Of a stretch of 48,344 nt of DNA, positions 2,365-13,188 are shown one piece after another. Numbering within the stretch: the first letter of the stretch is position 1; the number at the start of each line of letters is the position of its first letter. The stretch spans positions 1 to 48,344 of the IMG/VR virus record IMGVR_UViG_3300030117_004088; one strand, given 5' to 3'. Source of the stretch: a virus. Below the pieces are notes generated by a model. The model was not told the DNA's origin, ran no database searches, and saw only the letters and a list, made by a program, of their open reading frames with translations. A program made the position numbers and the translations under genes.

Positions 2365-2629
2365 TTAAAAAAGGGGGGTAAATTGTGTGTAGGACTTACA
2401 GGGCGTAATTTCTCTGCTGAACAAAGACAACCATAGACCCTTGCCTAAATGGTGAGAGAAACAAAAAACGGGGACAGTGCATTACTCTTTCAGTCATGTC
2501 TCTGCTTCTGATTGACACCACTAATACTGTAGTACGGTTTCCTAAAGGAACAACGCTCTTGCGAGGCAGATTTACATCTAGTGTTACTTGTCAGAGTAGA
2601 AAGAAACCGTCTTTGTTTCCCATGTGCTT
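2365..2629 (-). ncRNA. Candidate structured leader upstream of the 145-aa gene
   Basis: About 265 bases with no convincing gene and about 43 percent G+C. Two perfect long-range pairings are visible: AACAAAGAC with GTCTTTGTT (9 bp, 2609-2617 with 2420-2428), which would close the whole domain, and ACGGTTTC with GAAACCGT (8 bp, 2603-2610 with 2534-2541). The pair TACTCT/AGAGTA would cross the second stem, and small hairpins such as CTC-GCAA-GAG and TTCC-TTTA-GGAA fill the interior. A TATAAT at 2635-2630 overlaps the stop of the upstream methyltransferase but lacks a clear -35. A start-less open frame in the same strand makes a decayed gene the main alternative. Confidence 0.4.
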
Positions 2630-2630
2630 A

Positions 2631-3491
2631 TTATAGTGCATCTAGCAGAGGATTCGACACCTCTTGTACCACTTCTTTCACTGGTACATGCTCCTTGAGT
2701 CTCCTTTGAGATACATTGTAGTATGATTCATCAATCTCAAATCCTATGAAGTTTCTATTAGTATCCTTAGATATAACAGCAGTAGTTCCAGCACCCATAA
2801 AAGGATCTAATACTAAATCATCCTCATTACTCCATGTCATTATATGATCTTGTGCCAACAATTCAGGATACATTGCAGGATGTTCAAATGCAAAATCATC
2901 TTTAGTTGTATAACCTTTACCTGTATTATATTTCCAAATGTTATTTCTAGGTGAGAATTTAGGTGTTGGTTTCTGTTGTCTTGTTATTAATTTACCATCT
3001 TTAGCTCTCATTGTTCCACCATCTTTTCCCCAAGGTGTATGTCCTGCCCACTTATTAGGTTTATCACATATTAAATTAGCAGTCTTTGGTTTACCATCTT
3101 TACTCAAGATAAACATGTATTCAAATAGTTGTGAATACCTATTACCATCTCTCCTAGCAGGGAAAGCAGTTCCATTCTTTTCATATATCATTGTATCATG
3201 TAACTTAAAACCTAAGTCCATGAAGTATAATGCCTGTCTGAAACTACTACCAGTCTCGCTCCCTTTAATTACAGCATCACCAACTACCCATACAATAACA
3301 CCACCAACTTTCATCACTCGGTATAAACCTTGTGCTACCTCTTTGAATACCTCAAAGTCCCATTTACTACTGTCATTATATGTTCTCAAGTCATCATACG
3401 GTGGACTCGTAACGCACAAGTCAACCATGTTCTCGTGCATGTATCGCATACCAGTAATGCAAGATTGATTGTAAATAGTGTTAATTTGCAT
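2631..3491 (-). CDS. DNA methyltransferase, beta-class (TSPPY type)
   Basis: A 286-residue S-adenosylmethionine-dependent amino-methyltransferase. The catalytic motif TSPPY is at residues 28-32 and the SAM-binding motif DPFMGAGTT at about 229-237. Catalytic motif first and SAM motif last is the beta-class order (N6-adenine or N4-cytosine; SPPY leans toward N4-cytosine). The length is normal for the family and no restriction endonuclease is adjacent. It starts 3 bases after the ParB-like gene, suggesting a functional pair. A second enzyme of the same layout lies at 10166-11032. Likely roles are protection from host restriction or epigenetic control; the target sequence cannot be predicted. Confidence 0.9.
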   Translation of the reverse strand: MQINTIYNQSCITGMRYMHENMVDLCVTSPPYDDLRTYNDSSKWDFEVFKEVAQGLYRVMKVGGVIVWVVGDAVIKGSETGSSFRQALYFMDLGFKLHDTMIYEKNGTAFPARRDGNRYSQLFEYMFILSKDGKPKTANLICDKPNKWAGHTPWGKDGGTMRAKDGKLITRQQKPTPKFSPRNNIWKYNTGKGYTTKDDFAFEHPAMYPELLAQDHIMTWSNEDDLVLDPFMGAGTTAVISKDTNRNFIGFEIDESYYNVSQRRLKEHVPVKEVVQEVSNPLLDAL

Positions 3492-3494
3492 TAC

Positions 3495-4394
3495 TTAAGG
3501 TTTGCATGAATAGAATTTACGATACCTTCCACCCTTCTTAAGATTATCATCTGTAAGAGTATCTTCATCACAATCAAATTCAATCATACCATCATCTCTC
3601 TCTAACATCCTATCTAATCCAACACATAACATTCTATACCATAATGTTATTCTTGGTGCATTTGCTAAATGTGTTGTCTTACTATCAAAATATTCTACCA
3701 TACCCTTACTTAATGTTGTTGATTCTCCATCAGCAAGAAACTCACCTGCTATCAATTCAAGTAAACTAATTGCTTCCTCTTTATTACCACTAATATATGC
3801 AAATGTTGCCCATGCACCTACAGTTTTTTGTGCAAAAGTAAAACATTGTTTGTTAGTTGATTCAAAAAATTCATCTGCAATTTGTTGTCCTTTAATAATA
3901 GACTTCTTCCATATCACCCAATGATCATAACAATTATCTTGTCTCAATGATTCACCTTGACGAGAAACTATATCAGAAAGAATAACATATTGTGCTGCTG
4001 TTGCTTCAGGATCTCTCCTTAATACTTCATCTTTAGGTGTACGATTCTTTGCTGGATGAGTCTTACTAAAACAATCAGGTTCAACACCAGTAACAACATT
4101 AAATTTAAATTTTATATCTTGTCCTTTAAACTTTACTATTGCCTTTAATGTATGTTGTTTCTCTGTTAAATTCCCATTAGTATTAAATGTAATAGGTTGC
4201 CCATCTTGATAAAACTTATCTCTTTCTATAGAATTATAAATCTTATTAACTTGAGACTGTGATTGTCTCCTATTCTCATAATTATGATTGATAAGAATAT
4301 ACTCTGCTTGTTCTGGAGTAATGTCATACATACCCGATTCATACTCCTGACAACAGGGATCGAATGGTAGAGTAGTTTTTACTGTCTCACTCAT
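3495..4394 (-). CDS. ParB/sulfiredoxin-fold-like protein
   Basis: A 299-residue protein whose first 100 residues match the pattern of phage ParB-like domains: YENRRQSQSQVNKIYNSI followed by ITFNTNGNLTEKQHTLKAIV. In the usual family the last part reads DGQHR; here it is TEKQHT (residues 77-82), so the His remains but the Gly and Arg are lost. The C-terminal 200 residues look helical and are unassigned. ParB-like domains often sit beside or are fused to DNA methyltransferases, and here the methyltransferase follows 3 bases later. It is the first gene after the promoter of the 4415-4449 repeat. A DNA-targeting role for the methyltransferase is an inference. Confidence 0.6.
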   Translation of the reverse strand: MSETVKTTLPFDPCCQEYESGMYDITPEQAEYILINHNYENRRQSQSQVNKIYNSIERDKFYQDGQPITFNTNGNLTEKQHTLKAIVKFKGQDIKFKFNVVTGVEPDCFSKTHPAKNRTPKDEVLRRDPEATAAQYVILSDIVSRQGESLRQDNCYDHWVIWKKSIIKGQQIADEFFESTNKQCFTFAQKTVGAWATFAYISGNKEEAISLLELIAGEFLADGESTTLSKGMVEYFDSKTTHLANAPRITLWYRMLCVGLDRMLERDDGMIEFDCDEDTLTDDNLKKGGRYRKFYSCKP

Positions 4395-4415
4395 TTTTTT
4401 ATAATCACTATAGGC

Positions 4416-4444
4416 ATTATAAAACCCCTCAACTAAAAAGTCAA
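4416..4444 (-). promoter_or_regulatory. Near-consensus sigma70 promoter inside the terminator (element B)
   Basis: Minus strand: TTGACT (4444-4439), exactly 17 bases, TATAAT (4421-4416). The -35 lies in the ascending arm of the hairpin and the -10 begins with the last T of the T-run. The predicted transcript would have only about 15 bases before the ATG at 4394, with no clear Shine-Dalgarno. Confidence 0.8.
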
Positions 4445-4448
4445 GGGG
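4425..4448 (-). terminator. Intrinsic terminator (element B)
   Basis: Minus strand: CCCCTTGAC, loop TTTTTA, GTTGAGGGG (9-bp stem with two G-T pairs), then TTTT. It lies just after the stop of the gene at 4463-4675. Confidence 0.8.
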
Positions 4449-4462
4449 TATTGTGTAGGTTT

Positions 4463-4675
4463 TTAAGCTGGTACTTTCCAGATGTAGATAGCGTCTCTCA
4501 TAAGTTTTAATGGATTGTCTCTCTTTCCACCCAATGATTTAATCATTTGATGTTCTGCAAGACAGGAACATAACTCAGAGACATCTAAAGCACTAAGTTT
4601 ATCCAAGTACATGGTAAGATCTTCTTTAACAGCATAATAATCTGCTTCAACTTGAGGATCTTTGAACTTTTTCAT
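4463..4675 (-). CDS. Hypothetical protein, 70 aa
   Basis: A 70-residue protein, mostly helical by composition, with the pair CSC near residue 37. It ends IYIWKVPA 15 bases before the element B terminator, so it is the last gene of its transcription unit. About 120 non-coding bases lie upstream. No family recognised. Confidence 0.65.
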   Translation of the reverse strand: MKKFKDPQVEADYYAVKEDLTMYLDKLSALDVSELCSCLAEHQMIKSLGGKRDNPLKLMRDAIYIWKVPA

Positions 4676-4690
4676 AATGTGAATGTGAAA

Positions 4691-4723
4691 CTACTCTTTT
4701 AATATACACCAGTTTGAGAGTAG
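4691..4723. other. Inverted repeat in the gap before the 70-aa gene
   Basis: CTACTCT at 4691-4697 and AGAGTAG at 4717-4723, a perfect 7-base inverted repeat with a 19-base centre. The gap 4676-4793 also repeats AAACTGG on the minus strand. It may be an operator or an RNA hairpin; no promoter is convincing here. Confidence 0.35.
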
Positions 4724-4793
4724 TGTGTGCCAGTTTGTGTAACTTCACAAGGTGACTTTTTCTTCAAGGTTTCTCTACGCTTTCTCTACACTA

Positions 4794-5096
4794 TCAATCG
4801 TCATACACTCTGCACTCTAATGAGTCAGGATGATTATCACAGTACACTTCTAAATGCTTATCCTCATGCCTAGTATGCCAATCATTGATCTTACCGTCAT
4901 TCGTATTGACTTCTGATTCATCATGTGCATGGAAAGCATCATTGTGCATTTCTAAATCTTCTTTGCTATACTCTAACATACCATGATTGATATGCTCTTT
5001 ACCATCATTAGGATCTAGATATACTTCATGTTCTAAATCGTGATTTGGAGTTTTAGTAGTCATAAGCCATCCAACTTTACTATTGAGTAATCTCAT
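4794..5096 (-). CDS. Hypothetical acidic His-rich protein, up to 100 aa
   Basis: An acidic protein with many His, Asp, Glu and Asn residues (for example HNDAFHAHDESE), with no recognised domain. Two starts are possible: the first Met at 5096, or the Met at 5063 (MTTKTPNHDL), which has GGATGG a few bases upstream and would give 89 residues. I list the longer form but find the shorter equally likely. It ends with the acidic RVYDD. Confidence 0.6.
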   Translation of the reverse strand: MRLLNSKVGWLMTTKTPNHDLEHEVYLDPNDGKEHINHGMLEYSKEDLEMHNDAFHAHDESEVNTNDGKINDWHTRHEDKHLEVYCDNHPDSLECRVYDD

Positions 5097-5108
5097 TGTT
5101 ATTTATTT

Positions 5109-5327
5109 TCAAGAGACTGTTTGAAGTTCTCGAATTGATACCTTCCTAACAAACTCTTGATTCATATTATAATACAATTTATGATTTTCTGTGGTAACAT
5201 AGTGTCCTTTTATGTCCCCATCCTGACAATGCCACCCATAAGCAATGACTTTTTCCTCTACACCATCTATTCTCATCTTTTTACTACCATCTAGGTAAGA
5301 GTGGTATCTTTCGTCTAAGTTAAGCAT
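5109..5327 (-). CDS. Hypothetical protein, 72 aa
   Basis: A 72-residue protein with many Tyr and His residues and several likely beta strands (EKVIAYGWHC, GHYVTT, KLYYNM). It is the first gene after a candidate promoter at 5351-5359, with no Shine-Dalgarno in the short leader. Family unknown. Confidence 0.6.
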   Translation of the reverse strand: MLNLDERYHSYLDGSKKMRIDGVEEKVIAYGWHCQDGDIKGHYVTTENHKLYYNMNQEFVRKVSIRELQTVS

Positions 5328-5350
5328 GAGTTTAAGAAGTATGTGTTGGT

Positions 5351-5359
5351 ATTATAACA
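5351..5359 (-). promoter_or_regulatory. Possible extended -10 promoter
   Basis: Minus strand TGTTATAAT: a full -10 with TG one base upstream. No clear -35 is visible in the AT-rich sequence before it. It lies 23 bases before the ATG at 5327. Confidence 0.4.
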
Positions 5360-5422
5360 TAGTTATATATTTTATCTATAAACTTTATATTGTCTTTAGA
5401 GTTAGATAGTATAACTTAATAC

Positions 5423-5620
5423 TTAAGTAGTCTCATTCATGTGAGCATCCACAATATCCTGTAACTTTTCAAACTCTTTTAAACTTTCAATATCATACAA
5501 TAATTTAGATATTTGATTCACAACTAAAGGTTTTTCATTCATTGCAGCAAACTTAATTGCTGCTCGGATGCTGCCCTCTGCCTCAAGTAAATAATCTATT
5601 GTTTGTTTTGATAATGCCAT
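5423..5620 (-). CDS. Hypothetical helical protein, 65 aa
   Basis: A 65-residue protein, almost entirely helix-forming (for example LLEAEGSIRAAIKFAAMNEK). The ATG at 5620 overlaps the upstream stop as TAATG. No family recognised. Confidence 0.6.
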   Translation of the reverse strand: MALSKQTIDYLLEAEGSIRAAIKFAAMNEKPLVVNQISKLLYDIESLKEFEKLQDIVDAHMNETT

Positions 5621-5820
5621 TAGACTTCATCCTCACAATGCTTTTCTACAATCTCTGTAATTATATCAGAAAAAGCATCACGCAATTCATATTCAATATC
5701 ACTCTTATCTTTCTTTAACCTAGTAACTGTAATAGGTGGAAGTGTGAGAGTAGCAGTAATATCCCATAATCCAAGTTCTTTGTTCTTGGTAGTTGTAATT
5801 TCTAGCATTTGTTTTTCCAT
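5620..5820 (-). CDS. Hypothetical protein, 66 aa
   Basis: A 66-residue protein with a beta-rich first half (MLEITTTKNK, LWDITATLTLPPITV) and an acidic helical second half. The start at 5820 lies two bases after the upstream stop; a second Met four codons in is an alternative with GGAAA before it. The stop overlaps the next start as TAATG. Function unknown. Confidence 0.6.
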   Translation of the reverse strand: MEKQMLEITTTKNKELGLWDITATLTLPPITVTRLKKDKSDIEYELRDAFSDIITEIVEKHCEDEV

Positions 5821-5822
5821 GA

Positions 5823-6203
5823 TTAATTTTCATCCTCATCATTATGTAGTTCAGGTGAATCTAGTTTAAATCTACTCTTATCAATCGGAGTATATTCAAA
5901 TCCATATTTCTCTAATGCCTCTTGAAACTCTTTCCCTGATAGTTTACCCTCCCAATAGTCATTCTCAGTATATCCACCATCAATAACTTCAATGTCTTTA
6001 TTAGTATTACTTTTTAATAAAGCTAGTAGTTTCACACTATCATTATAACATGCCCTATAATATCTCATATTATCCTTGACAGTATCAGTTATAACATCAT
6101 ATACTTCTTGTGGAGTAAATTCTCCTATCATAACTTCTCTTAGCGAATCTTGTAGATTCTCAATAGAATAGTTATGCTCCGATTTTTCTGTCATTCTTGT
6201 CAT
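5823..6203 (-). CDS. Hypothetical acidic protein, 126 aa
   Basis: A 126-residue acidic protein, helical in the first two thirds, with an Asp/Glu-rich tail (HNDEDEN). The start is either the first Met (6203) or the fourth codon. Its first 32 bases overlap the end of the small gene at 6172-6345, so its ribosome binding site lies inside that gene. No family recognised. Confidence 0.65.
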   Translation of the reverse strand: MTRMTEKSEHNYSIENLQDSLREVMIGEFTPQEVYDVITDTVKDNMRYYRACYNDSVKLLALLKSNTNKDIEVIDGGYTENDYWEGKLSGKEFQEALEKYGFEYTPIDKSRFKLDSPELHNDEDEN

Positions 6204-6345
6204 ATTGAATCGCTTGGTTAATAATAACTTGTATTTCCTTAGATGTCAAGTTGTTTAAGAATTTCCAGTTAGGATCTTTCTTATCCCATTCTAATGTAAA
6301 TGAACCATCACTATTCTGATTGACTTTTAAACTTTCGTTCTGCAT
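6172..6345 (-). CDS. Small conserved-looking phage protein, 57 aa
   Basis: A 57-residue ORF starting MQNESLKVNQ. The segment SDGSFTLEWDKKDPNWKFLN followed by TSKEIQ resembles a short family in T4-like cyanophages (pattern G-S-F/Y-T-x-E-W-D-x-x-D-P). It overlaps the upstream gene by 35 bases and the downstream gene by 32, so three genes share this short stretch. Function unknown. Confidence 0.6.
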   Translation of the reverse strand: MQNESLKVNQNSDGSFTLEWDKKDPNWKFLNNLTSKEIQVIINQAIQYDKNDRKIGA

Positions 6346-6469
6346 CCTTTTCCTCTTGTTTGATTCTTTTCTTCACCATCTTAGCATACTTTACTTCATC
6401 TTTAGTGTACCAATCAGGATGTTTCTTTGCTCTTTTTAATATAGTTTTTGCTGCTTTCTTATCATTCAT
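6311..6469 (-). CDS. Small basic helical protein, 52 aa
   Basis: A 52-residue, very basic protein (MNDKKAAKTILKRAKKHPDW start). It reads as a helix, a KHPDWYTKDEV turn and a second Lys-rich helix. Similar small proteins (pattern A-x-K-H-P-x-x-Y/F-T/S) occur in cyanophages with unknown function. It begins 31 bases after the halogenase stop. A nucleic-acid-binding role would fit the charge but is not shown. Confidence 0.6.
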   Translation of the reverse strand: MNDKKAAKTILKRAKKHPDWYTKDEVKYAKMVKKRIKQEEKDAERKFKSQSE

Positions 6470-6499
6470 GTATATTAATAGAATATTCTGAATAGGTAT

Positions 6500-7645
6500 T
6501 TATACACCATCATACCAATATCTAAAACTAGAATATGTCCATTGATCTCCATAATAATCACCATCATATCTTGGTTTTGATTCTAGTTCAAAGTAACTTT
6601 CTAGTTTACTCTTTTCTATAAACTCTTTAAAATATGAATCAGGTTTAAATGGAAGACTCTTAGCATATTCCCAAAAAGGAGTATCATACTTTGAACCAAA
6701 CTGATAATGCCACAGTATAAATGTTTCTAGTTGCTGTACAACTCTTCTAATATTATAATTAGACTCTATTTTAGTTCTATTACCTTGCATATAATCCCAT
6801 ACAAATCTACATACTGATTGATATAATCTTGTAGAAGTTGCTTCTAATGGTTCTAAGAATGAATACCTATTACCATTAAGAATAGTTCTCTCTCCAACAA
6901 ATATATTTTTAGCAACATAATTCTCGAAAGATATGTTACTGATGTTTGCAGTTAACGTACTATAATCAGTCTCAGGAAGATTAAATCTTTCTATAAAGTC
7001 ATGTCTTGCTGCTTGTGTTGATGTTATAGTATCATTATACAGATAACCATAAGATACACTATCAGAGTTAGGTATAACAAATGTCCACCCATTAGGAGTA
7101 GCAACAGTTCTAGTAAGATCTAATCCAACATCCTTACCATCCTTTCTATAAAGTAAACAAGAGTTTAAAGGATTGATAAGTGGTTCATAATCATCCTTAT
7201 TCCTATTGTGTCTACCTCTACAATCAAATATAAAATCAGCATCTATATCCTTTTCAGGATCATCTATAGTTCTCTCTACTACCTCAAATAAACCAGACTT
7301 TAATATACTATCTGATAACTTTTGAGGAACATAGTGCATAGACATTGTGTTCATTGGAAAGGAATGAAATATCTTATCCTTTTTCTTACCCCACCCCTCA
7401 TATAATATACCTTTCTTAAAGGTAGCATCTATATAATTTCTATCATACCAATTAGATTCTATTGTATGTGTTATTAATTGTGTAACAGTTACATTAGTTC
7501 CTTGTCCTACTTGTTCAATAGCAAACTCTTTAGGGTTATGGTATAAAACTATTTCATACTTATCTTTTGAATAATAATTAAAATGTAATGCAGATATACA
7601 TCCTGCATTACCAGCACCTATAATAGCAATCCTTTTCTTTTGCAT
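6500..7645 (-). CDS. Flavin-dependent halogenase (tryptophan halogenase-like)
   Basis: A 381-residue FAD-dependent halogenase-type protein. Visible landmarks: the FAD-binding GAGNAG at residues 10-15; a Lys near 77 in TFKKGILYEGW at the place of the catalytic Lys of PrnA-type enzymes; GWTFVIP at 186-192 in place of the family motif WxWxIP; and EPLEAT at 265-270, matching the conserved Glu region near chloride and substrate. Bacterial tryptophan halogenases are usually above 500 residues, so this is a compact form. A cyanophage member of this family, VirX1, has been characterised as an iodination-preferring halogenase. The substrate here is unknown. It follows the 60-residue gene with a TAATG overlap, two genes after the element C promoter. 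Confidence 0.85.
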   Translation of the reverse strand: MQKKRIAIIGAGNAGCISALHFNYYSKDKYEIVLYHNPKEFAIEQVGQGTNVTVTQLITHTIESNWYDRNYIDATFKKGILYEGWGKKKDKIFHSFPMNTMSMHYVPQKLSDSILKSGLFEVVERTIDDPEKDIDADFIFDCRGRHNRNKDDYEPLINPLNSCLLYRKDGKDVGLDLTRTVATPNGWTFVIPNSDSVSYGYLYNDTITSTQAARHDFIERFNLPETDYSTLTANISNISFENYVAKNIFVGERTILNGNRYSFLEPLEATSTRLYQSVCRFVWDYMQGNRTKIESNYNIRRVVQQLETFILWHYQFGSKYDTPFWEYAKSLPFKPDSYFKEFIEKSKLESYFELESKPRYDGDYYGDQWTYSSFRYWYDGV

Positions 7646-7827
7646 TACCTTGGTTTCTTTTGCACATCATACTCAATGACAATCTTTTTGCTAGTTCTAC
7701 CAGTACTATCGTAAGTAGTATATCTGTGCATCTCACCACCTAATAATGATGTTAATGTTAGCATCTCTGCTACTACTGTTCCTTCGTCTTCCTTCATCAT
7801 ACCATACTGTGCATGTTCTATAGACAT
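7645..7827 (-). CDS. Hypothetical protein, 60 aa
   Basis: A 60-residue protein (MSIEHAQYGM start, VQKKPR end). It is the first gene after the element C promoter, with AAAAAAGG before the ATG, and its stop overlaps the halogenase start (TAATG). The position suggests co-expression with the halogenase, for example as a small partner, but no motif shows this. Confidence 0.65.
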   Translation of the reverse strand: MSIEHAQYGMMKEDEGTVVAEMLTLTSLLGGEMHRYTTYDSTGRTSKKIVIEYDVQKKPR

Positions 7828-7846
7828 TTATAATACCTTTTTTCCC

Positions 7847-7875
7847 ATTATAAAACCCCTCAACTAAAAAGTCAA
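7847..7875 (-). promoter_or_regulatory. Near-consensus sigma70 promoter inside the terminator (element C)
   Basis: Minus strand: TTGACT (7875-7870), 17 bases, TATAAT (7852-7847). It drives the 60-residue gene and the halogenase; the predicted leader is about 13 bases. Confidence 0.8.
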
Positions 7876-7879
7876 GGGG
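7856..7879 (-). terminator. Intrinsic terminator (element C)
   Basis: Same 9-bp stem (two G-T pairs) and T-run as element B. It would stop transcripts of the pyrE-helicase block that read past the gene at 7960-8118. Confidence 0.8.
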
Positions 7880-7959
7880 TGTGATTATTAATTGAATTTA
7901 CTTTAAGGTGGATGTTGATACTTAATCATTTGTTTGTTAAGATAAACGTCTAAATTGTT

Positions 7960-8118
7960 TTAAATTAAAACCTCCTTACATATACGTTTACAAACATGTT
8001 GGTTGTCTTCACAGTCAATTAGACACTCGTAGTATTCTGTGAGTAAATCATCTTGTGAATCGTCATATTCCATATGTTTTGATCCAGCGAGTTGATTAAA
8101 TGAAATTAAGTTGTGCAT
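7960..8118 (-). CDS. Small Cys-containing protein, 52 aa
   Basis: A 52-residue protein with an excellent Shine-Dalgarno (GGAGG, 7 bases before the ATG). It starts MHNLISFNQL and its second half reads YYECLIDCEDNQHVCKRICK, with four Cys spaced C-x3-C-x6-C-x3-C. That spacing suggests a small disulfide-paired or metal-binding helical hairpin. Similar short proteins are seen in marine cyanobacterial and phage genomes; the role is unknown. About 80 bases lie between it and the element C terminator. Confidence 0.7.
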   Translation of the reverse strand: MHNLISFNQLAGSKHMEYDDSQDDLLTEYYECLIDCEDNQHVCKRICKEVLI

Positions 8119-8251
8119 AATTGCCTCCAATGAACTACAATAACGAAGAGATTTAAATCATCTTGTTATCCCTAATTCTATCATTATTTATGCAATTTAG
8201 GTCCGTATTCCCTGATACATTTTAACAAAAATTTATGCCTATTAGTATAAC

Positions 8252-8635
8252 TTATGATACCTTTCTAAGTGGTACATCAATCTCCCATGAAGATGATTTT
8301 AGTTTTACTATATCAAAGTTCTTCTTAAACTCTTTCTCTCTTTCCTTTCTTTCCTTCTCCATTGTCAGTTCAATCGTTTCAATACTTGTCTCACCATAAT
8401 GATTCTCTTTGATACCCAAGTATTCTAAAACAGCATCATCAACCATACAATAGAGTGTATCCCAAGTTAAAGTATCTCTTAACCCAGTTGCAATACGATC
8501 AATGTCACCTCCATCTAGGTACTCACCCTTACATACTTTTTCTGAATAATCATCATATTGAGAAATAAGTTTCGCTCTTGTCTCTACCAACTTATTAAGG
8601 TTGATAGTGATCTTTACATCATCATCAATTTCCAT
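8252..8635 (-). CDS. Hypothetical charged protein, 127 aa
   Basis: A 127-residue acidic protein. The start is acidic (MEIDDDVKIT) and a Glu/Lys-rich coiled-coil-like stretch (ELTMEKERKEREKEFKKNF) lies near residues 87-105. It overlaps the upstream gene by 11 bases. The 130 bases downstream (8119-8251) hold no gene; an ATAAATA at 8191-8185 could be a weak late promoter for the 52-residue gene. Confidence 0.65.
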   Translation of the reverse strand: MEIDDDVKITINLNKLVETRAKLISQYDDYSEKVCKGEYLDGGDIDRIATGLRDTLTWDTLYCMVDDAVLEYLGIKENHYGETSIETIELTMEKERKEREKEFKKNFDIVKLKSSSWEIDVPLRKVS

Positions 8636-9020
8636 TTACTACTCTCTCCGCACGTTCTCTATCTTTTGGATCTGTAAAAGGATTCTCTGCATTGGGATCA
8701 TTACGTTTGTAATCGTACCATGCGTCTGAATGTTCATAATAATTACCTAATGCTCCACTCATTAGTGTTTCACTTATTTCACCTGCTGGTGTTGTAACTG
8801 TAGGAGTTACAGAATTATTCTTCTTACCAAATGGTATTGGATCTGCATGAGGATTAGGCATTGCTCTTACTATTTCAATTACCTCATCTCTTATCTCCAT
8901 CAGTTCATGGTAACATTCTTGATTGTGGGCACATCCCCTCAATCTACTATCAGGTTTATGTAAAGACTCCAATAAAAGAGTCTTACCACGTTCCCACTTT
9001 TCTAGTTTAGTTTCGCTCAT
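8625..9020 (-). CDS. Hypothetical protein, 131 aa
   Basis: A 131-residue protein. The first 55 residues are helical, followed by a Pro/Thr-rich linker (SVTPTVTTPAGE) and a Tyr/Asp-rich tail (YYEHSDAWYDY, NPFTDPKDRE). The ATG overlaps the upstream TGA (ATGA, 9020-9017). Unknown function. Confidence 0.65.
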   Translation of the reverse strand: MSETKLEKWERGKTLLLESLHKPDSRLRGCAHNQECYHELMEIRDEVIEIVRAMPNPHADPIPFGKKNNSVTPTVTTPAGEISETLMSGALGNYYEHSDAWYDYKRNDPNAENPFTDPKDRERAERVVNGN

Positions 9021-9226
9021 TTCTTCCTCTTTTCTTTGAGTATGTATGACTTAGCAAAGTCAAAGTTTCTTGCAGTATGTACCCACTCACCATTATGGAT
9101 GATAGCAAGTTTCTTACCACCCTCCATAGTTGGTACTGCTGCCCATGCTCCATCTTTGGTAACATAACCAGTCTTTTCATCTATTGCTTTCTTATAGAAA
9201 GTTTGATAGTTAGTACATCTAGTCAT
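9017..9226 (-). CDS. Hypothetical protein, 69 aa
   Basis: The frame is open for 115 codons, but I place the start at the internal Met at 9226 ([10 protein letters not shown]), because this ATG overlaps the upstream stop as ATGA like its neighbours. The longer form would overlap the membrane-protein gene by about 140 bases. The 69-residue protein is basic with a beta-rich centre (GAWAAVPTMEGGKKLAIIHN) and a Lys-rich end. No family recognised. Confidence 0.65.
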   Translation of the reverse strand: MTRCTNYQTFYKKAIDEKTGYVTKDGAWAAVPTMEGGKKLAIIHNGEWVHTARNFDFAKSYILKEKRKK

Positions 9227-11816: not shown

Positions 11817-12004
11817 ATTGTGTAACCCTTCTTTATACCTAATTTTTTGTTTGCTTTCCATATACCTAATGCAACCTTATGAGTTACATTCATGTCATAG
11901 ATATTTAATTTAAGAATATTGCATATATCGCCCTTAGTATAAGATGGATTAGTCAATCTTAAAACATAAGATGTTTGATATATTTGATTCGTTGTAAGTT
12001 TCAT
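11813..12004 (-). CDS. Hypothetical protein, 63 aa
   Basis: A 63-residue basic protein. Residues 20-60 alternate short helices (YTKGDICNILKLN, THKVALGIWKANKKLG), which could be a small helix-turn-helix, but the evidence is weak. Its ATG overlaps the helicase TGA and its TGA overlaps the next ATG. Confidence 0.6.
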   Translation of the reverse strand: MKLTTNQIYQTSYVLRLTNPSYTKGDICNILKLNIYDMNVTHKVALGIWKANKKLGIKKGYTI

Positions 12005-13188
12005 CTTGTGATAACGCTGGTTGCTGCCTCTCCTTTGTTAAAAATAGTATCAACAACTGCCTCTACCTTTCGTGCAGTAGAGATACCAACTTTAGAGTAA
12101 ACTGGTACACATACTAAACCGTATGCCTTATCAGTAGCACCCTTACGAATCACTCTACCGATTGTTTGACTAATACCAATGTAATCCATAGATCTTAAAA
12201 ACAAGACTGCCTCAAGTCCATTTACATTGATACCCTCAGATAAGATGCTATGATGTAGAACTACAAACTTAGTGTAATCATCCTTACCCCATGTATTTAA
12301 TACATCAAAGAACTTATCTCTACTAACCTTCTTACCATTGATAACAGCACCAGTCTTAGCAGTAATGTACATCCAATTATAACCACGTTCTCTCAACTGG
12401 CAACAGAAGTCAGTCTGAGATACTAAGTTTGTAATCTGCTTAGTTGACTTAGCACAGATAAGAACCTTGTCTTTCTCTAAGTTATCAATAGAATCAATCA
12501 TCTGCTCACAATCAACATCAGCAACTAACTCATGCTTGTTAAGTAAACGTGACTCATATACTTCTACCTTTGGTGGTAGAATATAACCTTCCTTCACTAA
12601 CTTAGGTGCAGGTACTTGACATATAACATTACCATATACATCACTATCATTCATTCCTGCCTTGAAAGGAGTAAGACTATGCTTAGGAGTAGCAGTGAAG
12701 AAAAAACTCCTGTGAGCAACCAAAGTTGCAAGATGTTCCACAGCAGGGAAAAAGTTTCGTTGTACACTATTATGTGCCTCATCAAAATAAACTACATCAA
12801 TTACAATATTACTCTCTTGTACTCTATGTAATGAATGGTATGTTGTAAAAATAATCTGATTTGAATTAGACTCATAACATAGGAAGTTATGGTATCTAAT
12901 ATCAAAAACTTTGGTTGAAGAGAAATGCTCAGTTTCACCACTGTGAACGTGCATGACTCTTACATCATTGAACTCTCCTGTTTCCAAGAACTCAGAGCAT
13001 AATTGCTCTGCTAATAAGATACGTGGAGCAACTACAACAATGGTTGAAACCTCTTGTGTACGGAATACTCTCTTGGCATCCTCTATCATACACATGGTTT
13101 TACCACCACCTGTAGGAACAATGATTTGCCCCTTAGAATGGTTTGCCATAGCATCCAGAGCATCAGTTTGGTGTGGACGTAATGGCAT
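12001..13188 (-). CDS. Superfamily 2 helicase, DEAH type (UvsW-like role possible)
   Basis: A 395-residue SF2 helicase. Motifs in order: Walker A PTGGGKT (25-31), Walker B DEAH (136-139), motif III TAT (165-167), motif V SEGIN (317-321), and motif VI QTIGRVIR (341-348). It is shorter than T4 UvsW (587 residues) and has no extra N-terminal domain; the DNA-repair helicase SSL2/type-III Res group is the closest style. Likely roles are branched-DNA unwinding, replication restart or R-loop removal. It is the first gene after the element D promoter and heads an operon that includes the 2OG oxygenase, a methyltransferase and pyrE. Confidence 0.88.
   Translation of the reverse strand: MPLRPHQTDALDAMANHSKGQIIVPTGGGKTMCMIEDAKRVFRTQEVSTIVVVAPRILLAEQLCSEFLETGEFNDVRVMHVHSGETEHFSSTKVFDIRYHNFLCYESNSNQIIFTTYHSLHRVQESNIVIDVVYFDEAHNSVQRNFFPAVEHLATLVAHRSFFFTATPKHSLTPFKAGMNDSDVYGNVICQVPAPKLVKEGYILPPKVEVYESRLLNKHELVADVDCEQMIDSIDNLEKDKVLICAKSTKQITNLVSQTDFCCQLRERGYNWMYITAKTGAVINGKKVSRDKFFDVLNTWGKDDYTKFVVLHHSILSEGINVNGLEAVLFLRSMDYIGISQTIGRVIRKGATDKAYGLVCVPVYSKVGISTARKVEAVVDTIFNKGEAATSVITR

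Follow-up and report, generated by a model that had tools for sequence, protein, structure and literature searches.

Can a single short sequence end one transcription unit and start the next, and where do phage genomes place such a sequence? The question is raised by the window analysed here (48,344 nt of T4-like cyanophage DNA, related to AG-345-L05 and to P-SSM2/P-SSM5), whose minus strand carries two copies of the 35-mer ACCCCTTGACTTTTTAGTTGAGGGGTTTTATAATG, at 4449-4415 (element 1) and 7880-7846 (element 2), with zero mismatches between them. A third copy was absent from the window at up to 3 mismatches (100 shuffles yielded 0, with 0 expected), and the whole 48,633-base record held none beyond these two. 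Shuffles of the window and Markov shuffles ruled out chance as the origin of the pair.

Each copy reads TTGACT, 17 bases and TATAAT on the minus strand (-35 at 4444-4439 and -10 at 4421-4416 in element 1; 7875-7870 and 7852-7847 in element 2), and the same bases form a hairpin (element 1: stem arms 4449-4439 and 4434-4424, loop 4438-4435, T-run 4424-4421; element 2: stem arms 7880-7870 and 7865-7855, loop 7869-7866, T-run 7855-7852). The initial annotation had described this arrangement correctly, from the identity and position of the copies to the placement of the -35 in the ascending arm and the sharing of one T between the end of the T-run and the start of the -10, except that the stem, given there as 9 bp, comprises 11 pairs closed by a 4-nt loop (RNA fold of -15.7 kcal/mol, z -5.2, with 0 of 200 shuffles equally stable). 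A stable, G+C-rich stem directly followed by a U-tract is the form of an intrinsic terminator; the tract is short (4 U; in the DNA, 4 T and then ATAAT), so that the predicted terminator is probably of moderate strength and termination may be partial. The window holds 2 stems of 8 or more pairs that are fused to a promoter whose spacer is 17 nt; 200 Markov shuffles gave 0.015 on average. Rfam gave zero matches across window positions 2400-9200, and no tRNA genes were found near the elements in the window.

Both copies sit between co-oriented genes, after the end of one and 19-21 nt ahead of the start codon of the next (all on the minus strand). Element 1 follows a gene for 70 aa without a family match (4463-4675; stop codon 13 nt from the hairpin) and precedes a 299-aa gene of phrog_5931, function unknown (3495-4394; start codon 21 nt after the -10). 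Element 2 lies downstream of a small gene of about 52 aa (phrog_665, function unknown; 7960-8118), itself preceded by a late-promoter-like ATAAATA (8185-8191), and upstream of a 60-aa gene (phrog_618, function unknown; 7645-7827; start codon 19 nt after the -10), behind which comes a tryptophan halogenase gene (6500-7645). The stretch of about 80 nt from the phrog_665 stop codon to element 2 (7881-7959, minus strand) carries a motif, CATCCACCTTAA, that is common to many relatives with differing downstream genes. Elsewhere in the window, an ordinary terminator (ACCCCCTTCACAGGGGGT TTTTTATGCT; 13242-13225, minus strand) stands ahead of a helicase gene (12001-13188); in five relatives (for example, L276), a fused element replaces it ahead of that gene.

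The initial annotation had named absence of the repeat from related phages as one outcome that would count against it; the element instead proved widespread among relatives. Stretches of viral contigs with its exact 29-mer core number 79, and those with a degenerate form 110; in wider scans for the family, a subfamily with a different stem (CCCTTGAC-N7-GTCAGGGGTTTTATAAT) was equally common among the matches listed. At least 192 distinct contexts were gathered, almost all of them on contigs of marine viruses, with P-SSM2, P-SSM5 and S-CREM2 in addition, and the element is also present in the single-cell phages AG-345. Genomes usually hold one or two copies (P-SSM2, S-CREM2, G001, G002 and G004; the window has two identical ones); fused elements number two in P-SSM2 and one in S-CREM2, and Markov shuffles almost never produce any. 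TTGAC-N-TATAAT promoters in these genomes are strand-biased, with few matches in a reversed control. The degenerate form, searched as an exact pattern, was absent from 84,980 bacterial and archaeal genomes, and a host origin of the element was rejected. Matches of 86-90% in PVP-SE1-like phages of Salmonella, Cronobacter and Klebsiella, with poor -10 sequences (TATTTT, TATTGT), were left out of the counts, and a scan of PVP-SE1 for the fused element returned none; these Seunaviruses (PVP-SE1 and SPLA5a; L085 1501-1530 and L084 1501-1530) do carry a very similar intergenic hairpin with TTGAC in one arm.

Comparison across the family bears on whether both signals matter. Among the matches listed, subfamily A (TTGAC/GTCAG) includes 95 hairpins with a loop of 7 and a -10 within one mismatch, and its hairpins with other loop lengths mostly lack a -10; subfamily B (TTGAC/GTTGA) includes, again among the matches listed, 96 hairpins with a loop of 6 and a -10, and 8 of its 11 loop-7 hairpins have no -10. 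A loop of 7 in A and of 6 in B each yields the 17-nt promoter spacer. The two bases at the ends of the loop, on which the search set no constraint, can pair in 35 of 37 distinct loops of subfamily A (17.2 expected; equalled in 0 of 2000 shuffles) and in 13 of 13 of subfamily B (7.4 expected; 2 of 2000), shuffle figures that are not strict probabilities because the loops are related by descent. The lower stem, likewise free in the search, is fully paired (CCC/GGGG) in 105 of 109 subfamily A contexts. Since one partner of the covarying loop-closing pair is the sixth base of the -35 hexamer, that promoter base changes jointly with the hairpin. Promoter and hairpin thus both look selected, because the two loop lengths each hold the spacer at 17 and the sixth -35 base covaries with its stem partner, and this comparative pattern upholds the proposal that a terminator-like hairpin and a near-consensus promoter occupy one short sequence. 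Read by eye, four same-stem hairpins with a 4-nt loop (L224, L268, L258 and L337) have the -10 re-created further downstream (for example, TTTTTGCTATAAT), arriving at a spacer of 17-18 nt by another route.

The position of downstream genes is promoter-like. A tRNA-Ala(UGC) gene follows the element in 54 of the at least 192 contexts, its first base 9-12 nt after the -10 in all 54, and an open frame follows in 133, with start codons that cluster 17-24 nt after the -10 (median 21 nt). That placement, together with the tie between loop length (6 or 7 according to subfamily), the presence of TATAAT and the 17-nt spacer, argues against a terminator that alone matters, with TTGAC and TATAAT arising from a conserved stem and an AT-rich tail; we consider such an origin highly improbable, even though the phrog_665 gene has a terminator after it in relatives with and without the promoter and a few same-stem hairpins lack a -10. 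In Syn9 and S-SM2, for instance, an ordinary intrinsic terminator, different in hairpin sequence and without a strong promoter, occupies the same position after the phrog_665 gene, so the promoter half appears dispensable in some lineages. The same placement of tRNA genes and start codons, the identity of many copies and the short U-tract would suit the converse case, in which only the promoter matters, and descent and recombination have spread a favoured sequence that happens to form a hairpin. We regard this as unlikely, given that the loop-closing pair covaries through A-T, T-A, T-G, C-G and G-C, the sixth -35 base included, that two stems with different partners (GTTGA and GTCAG) both remain fully paired, and that the orthologue in Syn9 has an ordinary terminator behind it.

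Upstream genes also end close to the element (medians of 25 and 62 nt). The phrog_665 gene precedes it in 108 protein-coding contexts, among the contexts listed, usually with about 80 nt between stop codon and element; cluster counts outside phrog_665 are rough, as the upstream protein clusters U55, U40 and U42 are likely wrong-frame readings of one gene. Behind the phrog_665-linked elements come many gene families, including heme oxygenase, a 2OG-Fe(II) oxygenase/endonuclease V-like protein and a NUMOD3 protein. For S-CREM2 gp74 (L083, 1533), the annotated start falls directly after the -10, and the likely start is an ATG after AAGGAG about 20 nt further on. At 102 phrog_665 loci, the late-promoter-like ATAAATA, which matches the motif NATAAATA described for S-PM2 (PMC2984593), stands before the gene on the sense strand 48 times and on the opposite strand once; at 50 of the 54 tRNA loci it lies no more than 45 nt from the stem. 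Cyanomyoviruses are without the T4 polymerase-modifying genes and are thought to use the unmodified host polymerase early (PMC2984593). The motif at the phrog_665 and tRNA loci suggests that late units end where early units begin, a timing that we infer. In the window as a whole, ATAAATA is rarer than chance (13 occurrences versus 30 expected), with 12 of the 13 on the minus, coding strand.

In three comparisons between relatives, homology ends either at the 3' end of the element or no more than about 10 bases from it. P-SSM2 and P-SSM5 are 98.9% identical over 2.1 kb, through the end of the element, after which P-SSM2 has one extra gene (PSSM2_054) before homology resumes. Agreement of the window with L043 and L055 ends at 4409, six bases past element 1, and resumes at 3491; the intervening segment (3492-4408, minus strand), with the 299-aa gene, is missing from both, and the DNA-methyltransferase gene (2631-3491) there directly follows the element. 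Against AG-345-L05 (L086), agreement ends at 7846, the last base of element 2, and resumes at 6503, at another late-promoter-like ATAAATA (6497-6503, minus strand), leaving 6504-7845 (minus strand) as a gene-content difference missing from that phage. Among pairs of protein-coding contexts with like upstream sequences, the probability of unlike downstream sequences was 0.86 at the element, compared with 0.15 at other shared 29-mers, and of the pairs alike on one flank only, 574 agreed upstream and 31 downstream; the pairs come from few loci and are not independent of one another, and the pooled counts overstate independence because most protein-coding copies occupy one orthologous locus. With breaks mostly on the 3' side, the pattern suits a swapping of the gene that follows, not an insertion of the element. 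Movement of the element itself as a small DNA unit, transposon-like or as a homing target, is extremely unlikely on this evidence, with neither terminal repeats, target duplications nor a linked enzyme seen at it; the two identical window copies with unrelated flanks, and the occurrence of the element at tRNA, phrog_665 and other loci, are what such movement would have explained.

Composite elements called promoter-early stem-loops (PeSLs) are reportedly known from the T4-type phages RB49 and Phi1. They combine a sigma70-like promoter and a stem-loop terminator between genes, at the borders of gene exchange. At the level of sequence, the element resembles them in having a sigma70-like promoter, predicted to be early from its host-type consensus, and a terminator-like stem-loop, and it too lies at borders of gene insertion, deletion and replacement. 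In the RB49/Phi1 composites read here, the hairpin already overlaps the promoter (for example, TTGAC[AGGGGATC]GGT[GATCCCCT]ATAAT), so that signal overlap itself is not new, and the view of the initial annotation that fusion sets the element apart from PeSLs is not supported. What differs is the geometry: in RB49/Phi1 the stem lies within the spacer between -35 and -10, the -35 is outside the stem and no T-run precedes the -10, whereas here the -35 is in the ascending arm and a T-run separates the stem from the -10. The element probably works like a PeSL, with this geometry as its new feature. A role for PeSLs in gene shuffling is cited in PMC4503421, a 2015 study of S-PM2 in which PeSL-type exchange was judged unlikely for want of such elements there. 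Overall, the initial interpretation is partly supported, and the comparisons extend it: members of the family stand ahead of tRNA-Ala genes, come after a single conserved small gene at most of their protein-coding sites, and mark exchange breakpoints.

Taken together, we favour, with a probability of roughly three in four, a reading in which each copy is at once an intrinsic terminator and a host-type, sigma70-like early promoter, closing one unit and opening the next at the border of a gene-exchange slot. RNA of the upstream unit would fold into the hairpin and be released at the short U-tract, and unmodified host polymerase would bind TTGACT-17-TATAAT on the same DNA, starting the next unit about 7 nt further on. 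The element would insulate an early unit, be it a tRNA-Ala gene or any of numerous small or accessory genes, from upstream transcription, which at most protein-coding sites would come from a small gene often preceded by the late-promoter motif. Because the element is portable and complete, homologous recombination ending at it could swap the gene behind without breaking transcription. What we infer is that both processes, termination and initiation, take place during infection, when and how efficiently they do so, and that the exchanges result from recombination at the element.

Two more elaborate versions deserve mention. Polymerase stopped at the T-run might stay on the DNA over the embedded promoter and restart there, so that termination of the upstream unit, often one with the late motif, would feed initiation of the next. 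This is conceivable because, in vitro, E. coli RNA polymerase frequently remains on the DNA once it has terminated and starts again from nearby promoters (Kang 2020, PMC6978380), and the likeness lies in a terminator so near a promoter that released polymerase can restart (PMC6978380; PMC11347151). Such recycling was demonstrated in vitro, with the E. coli enzyme and separate sites, whereas in the element the two sites share the same bases; we hold the relay to be doubtful. The initial annotation had proposed a regulated switch in which bound polymerase, hairpin folding and upstream transcription compete and so link the two operons. The physical overlap of the signals does imply that a terminating polymerase would briefly block the promoter; no regulator site, alternative RNA fold or conserved timing signal was found, and none is needed when an unregulated stop/start boundary accounts for the data, which makes the switch very unlikely.

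On the favoured reading, a stop/start boundary at an exchange slot, the element is a compact sequence mark, and one that can be counted, for the punctuation of T4-like cyanophage genomes and for the sites of gene exchange, accessory genes such as heme oxygenase and tryptophan halogenase among those exchanged. The family places composite elements at gene-exchange borders in marine cyanophages other than S-PM2. Because two phages in culture, P-SSM2 and P-SSM5, are set apart by a single gene at precisely this point, the element may also provide a natural test bed for terminator-to-promoter polymerase recycling.
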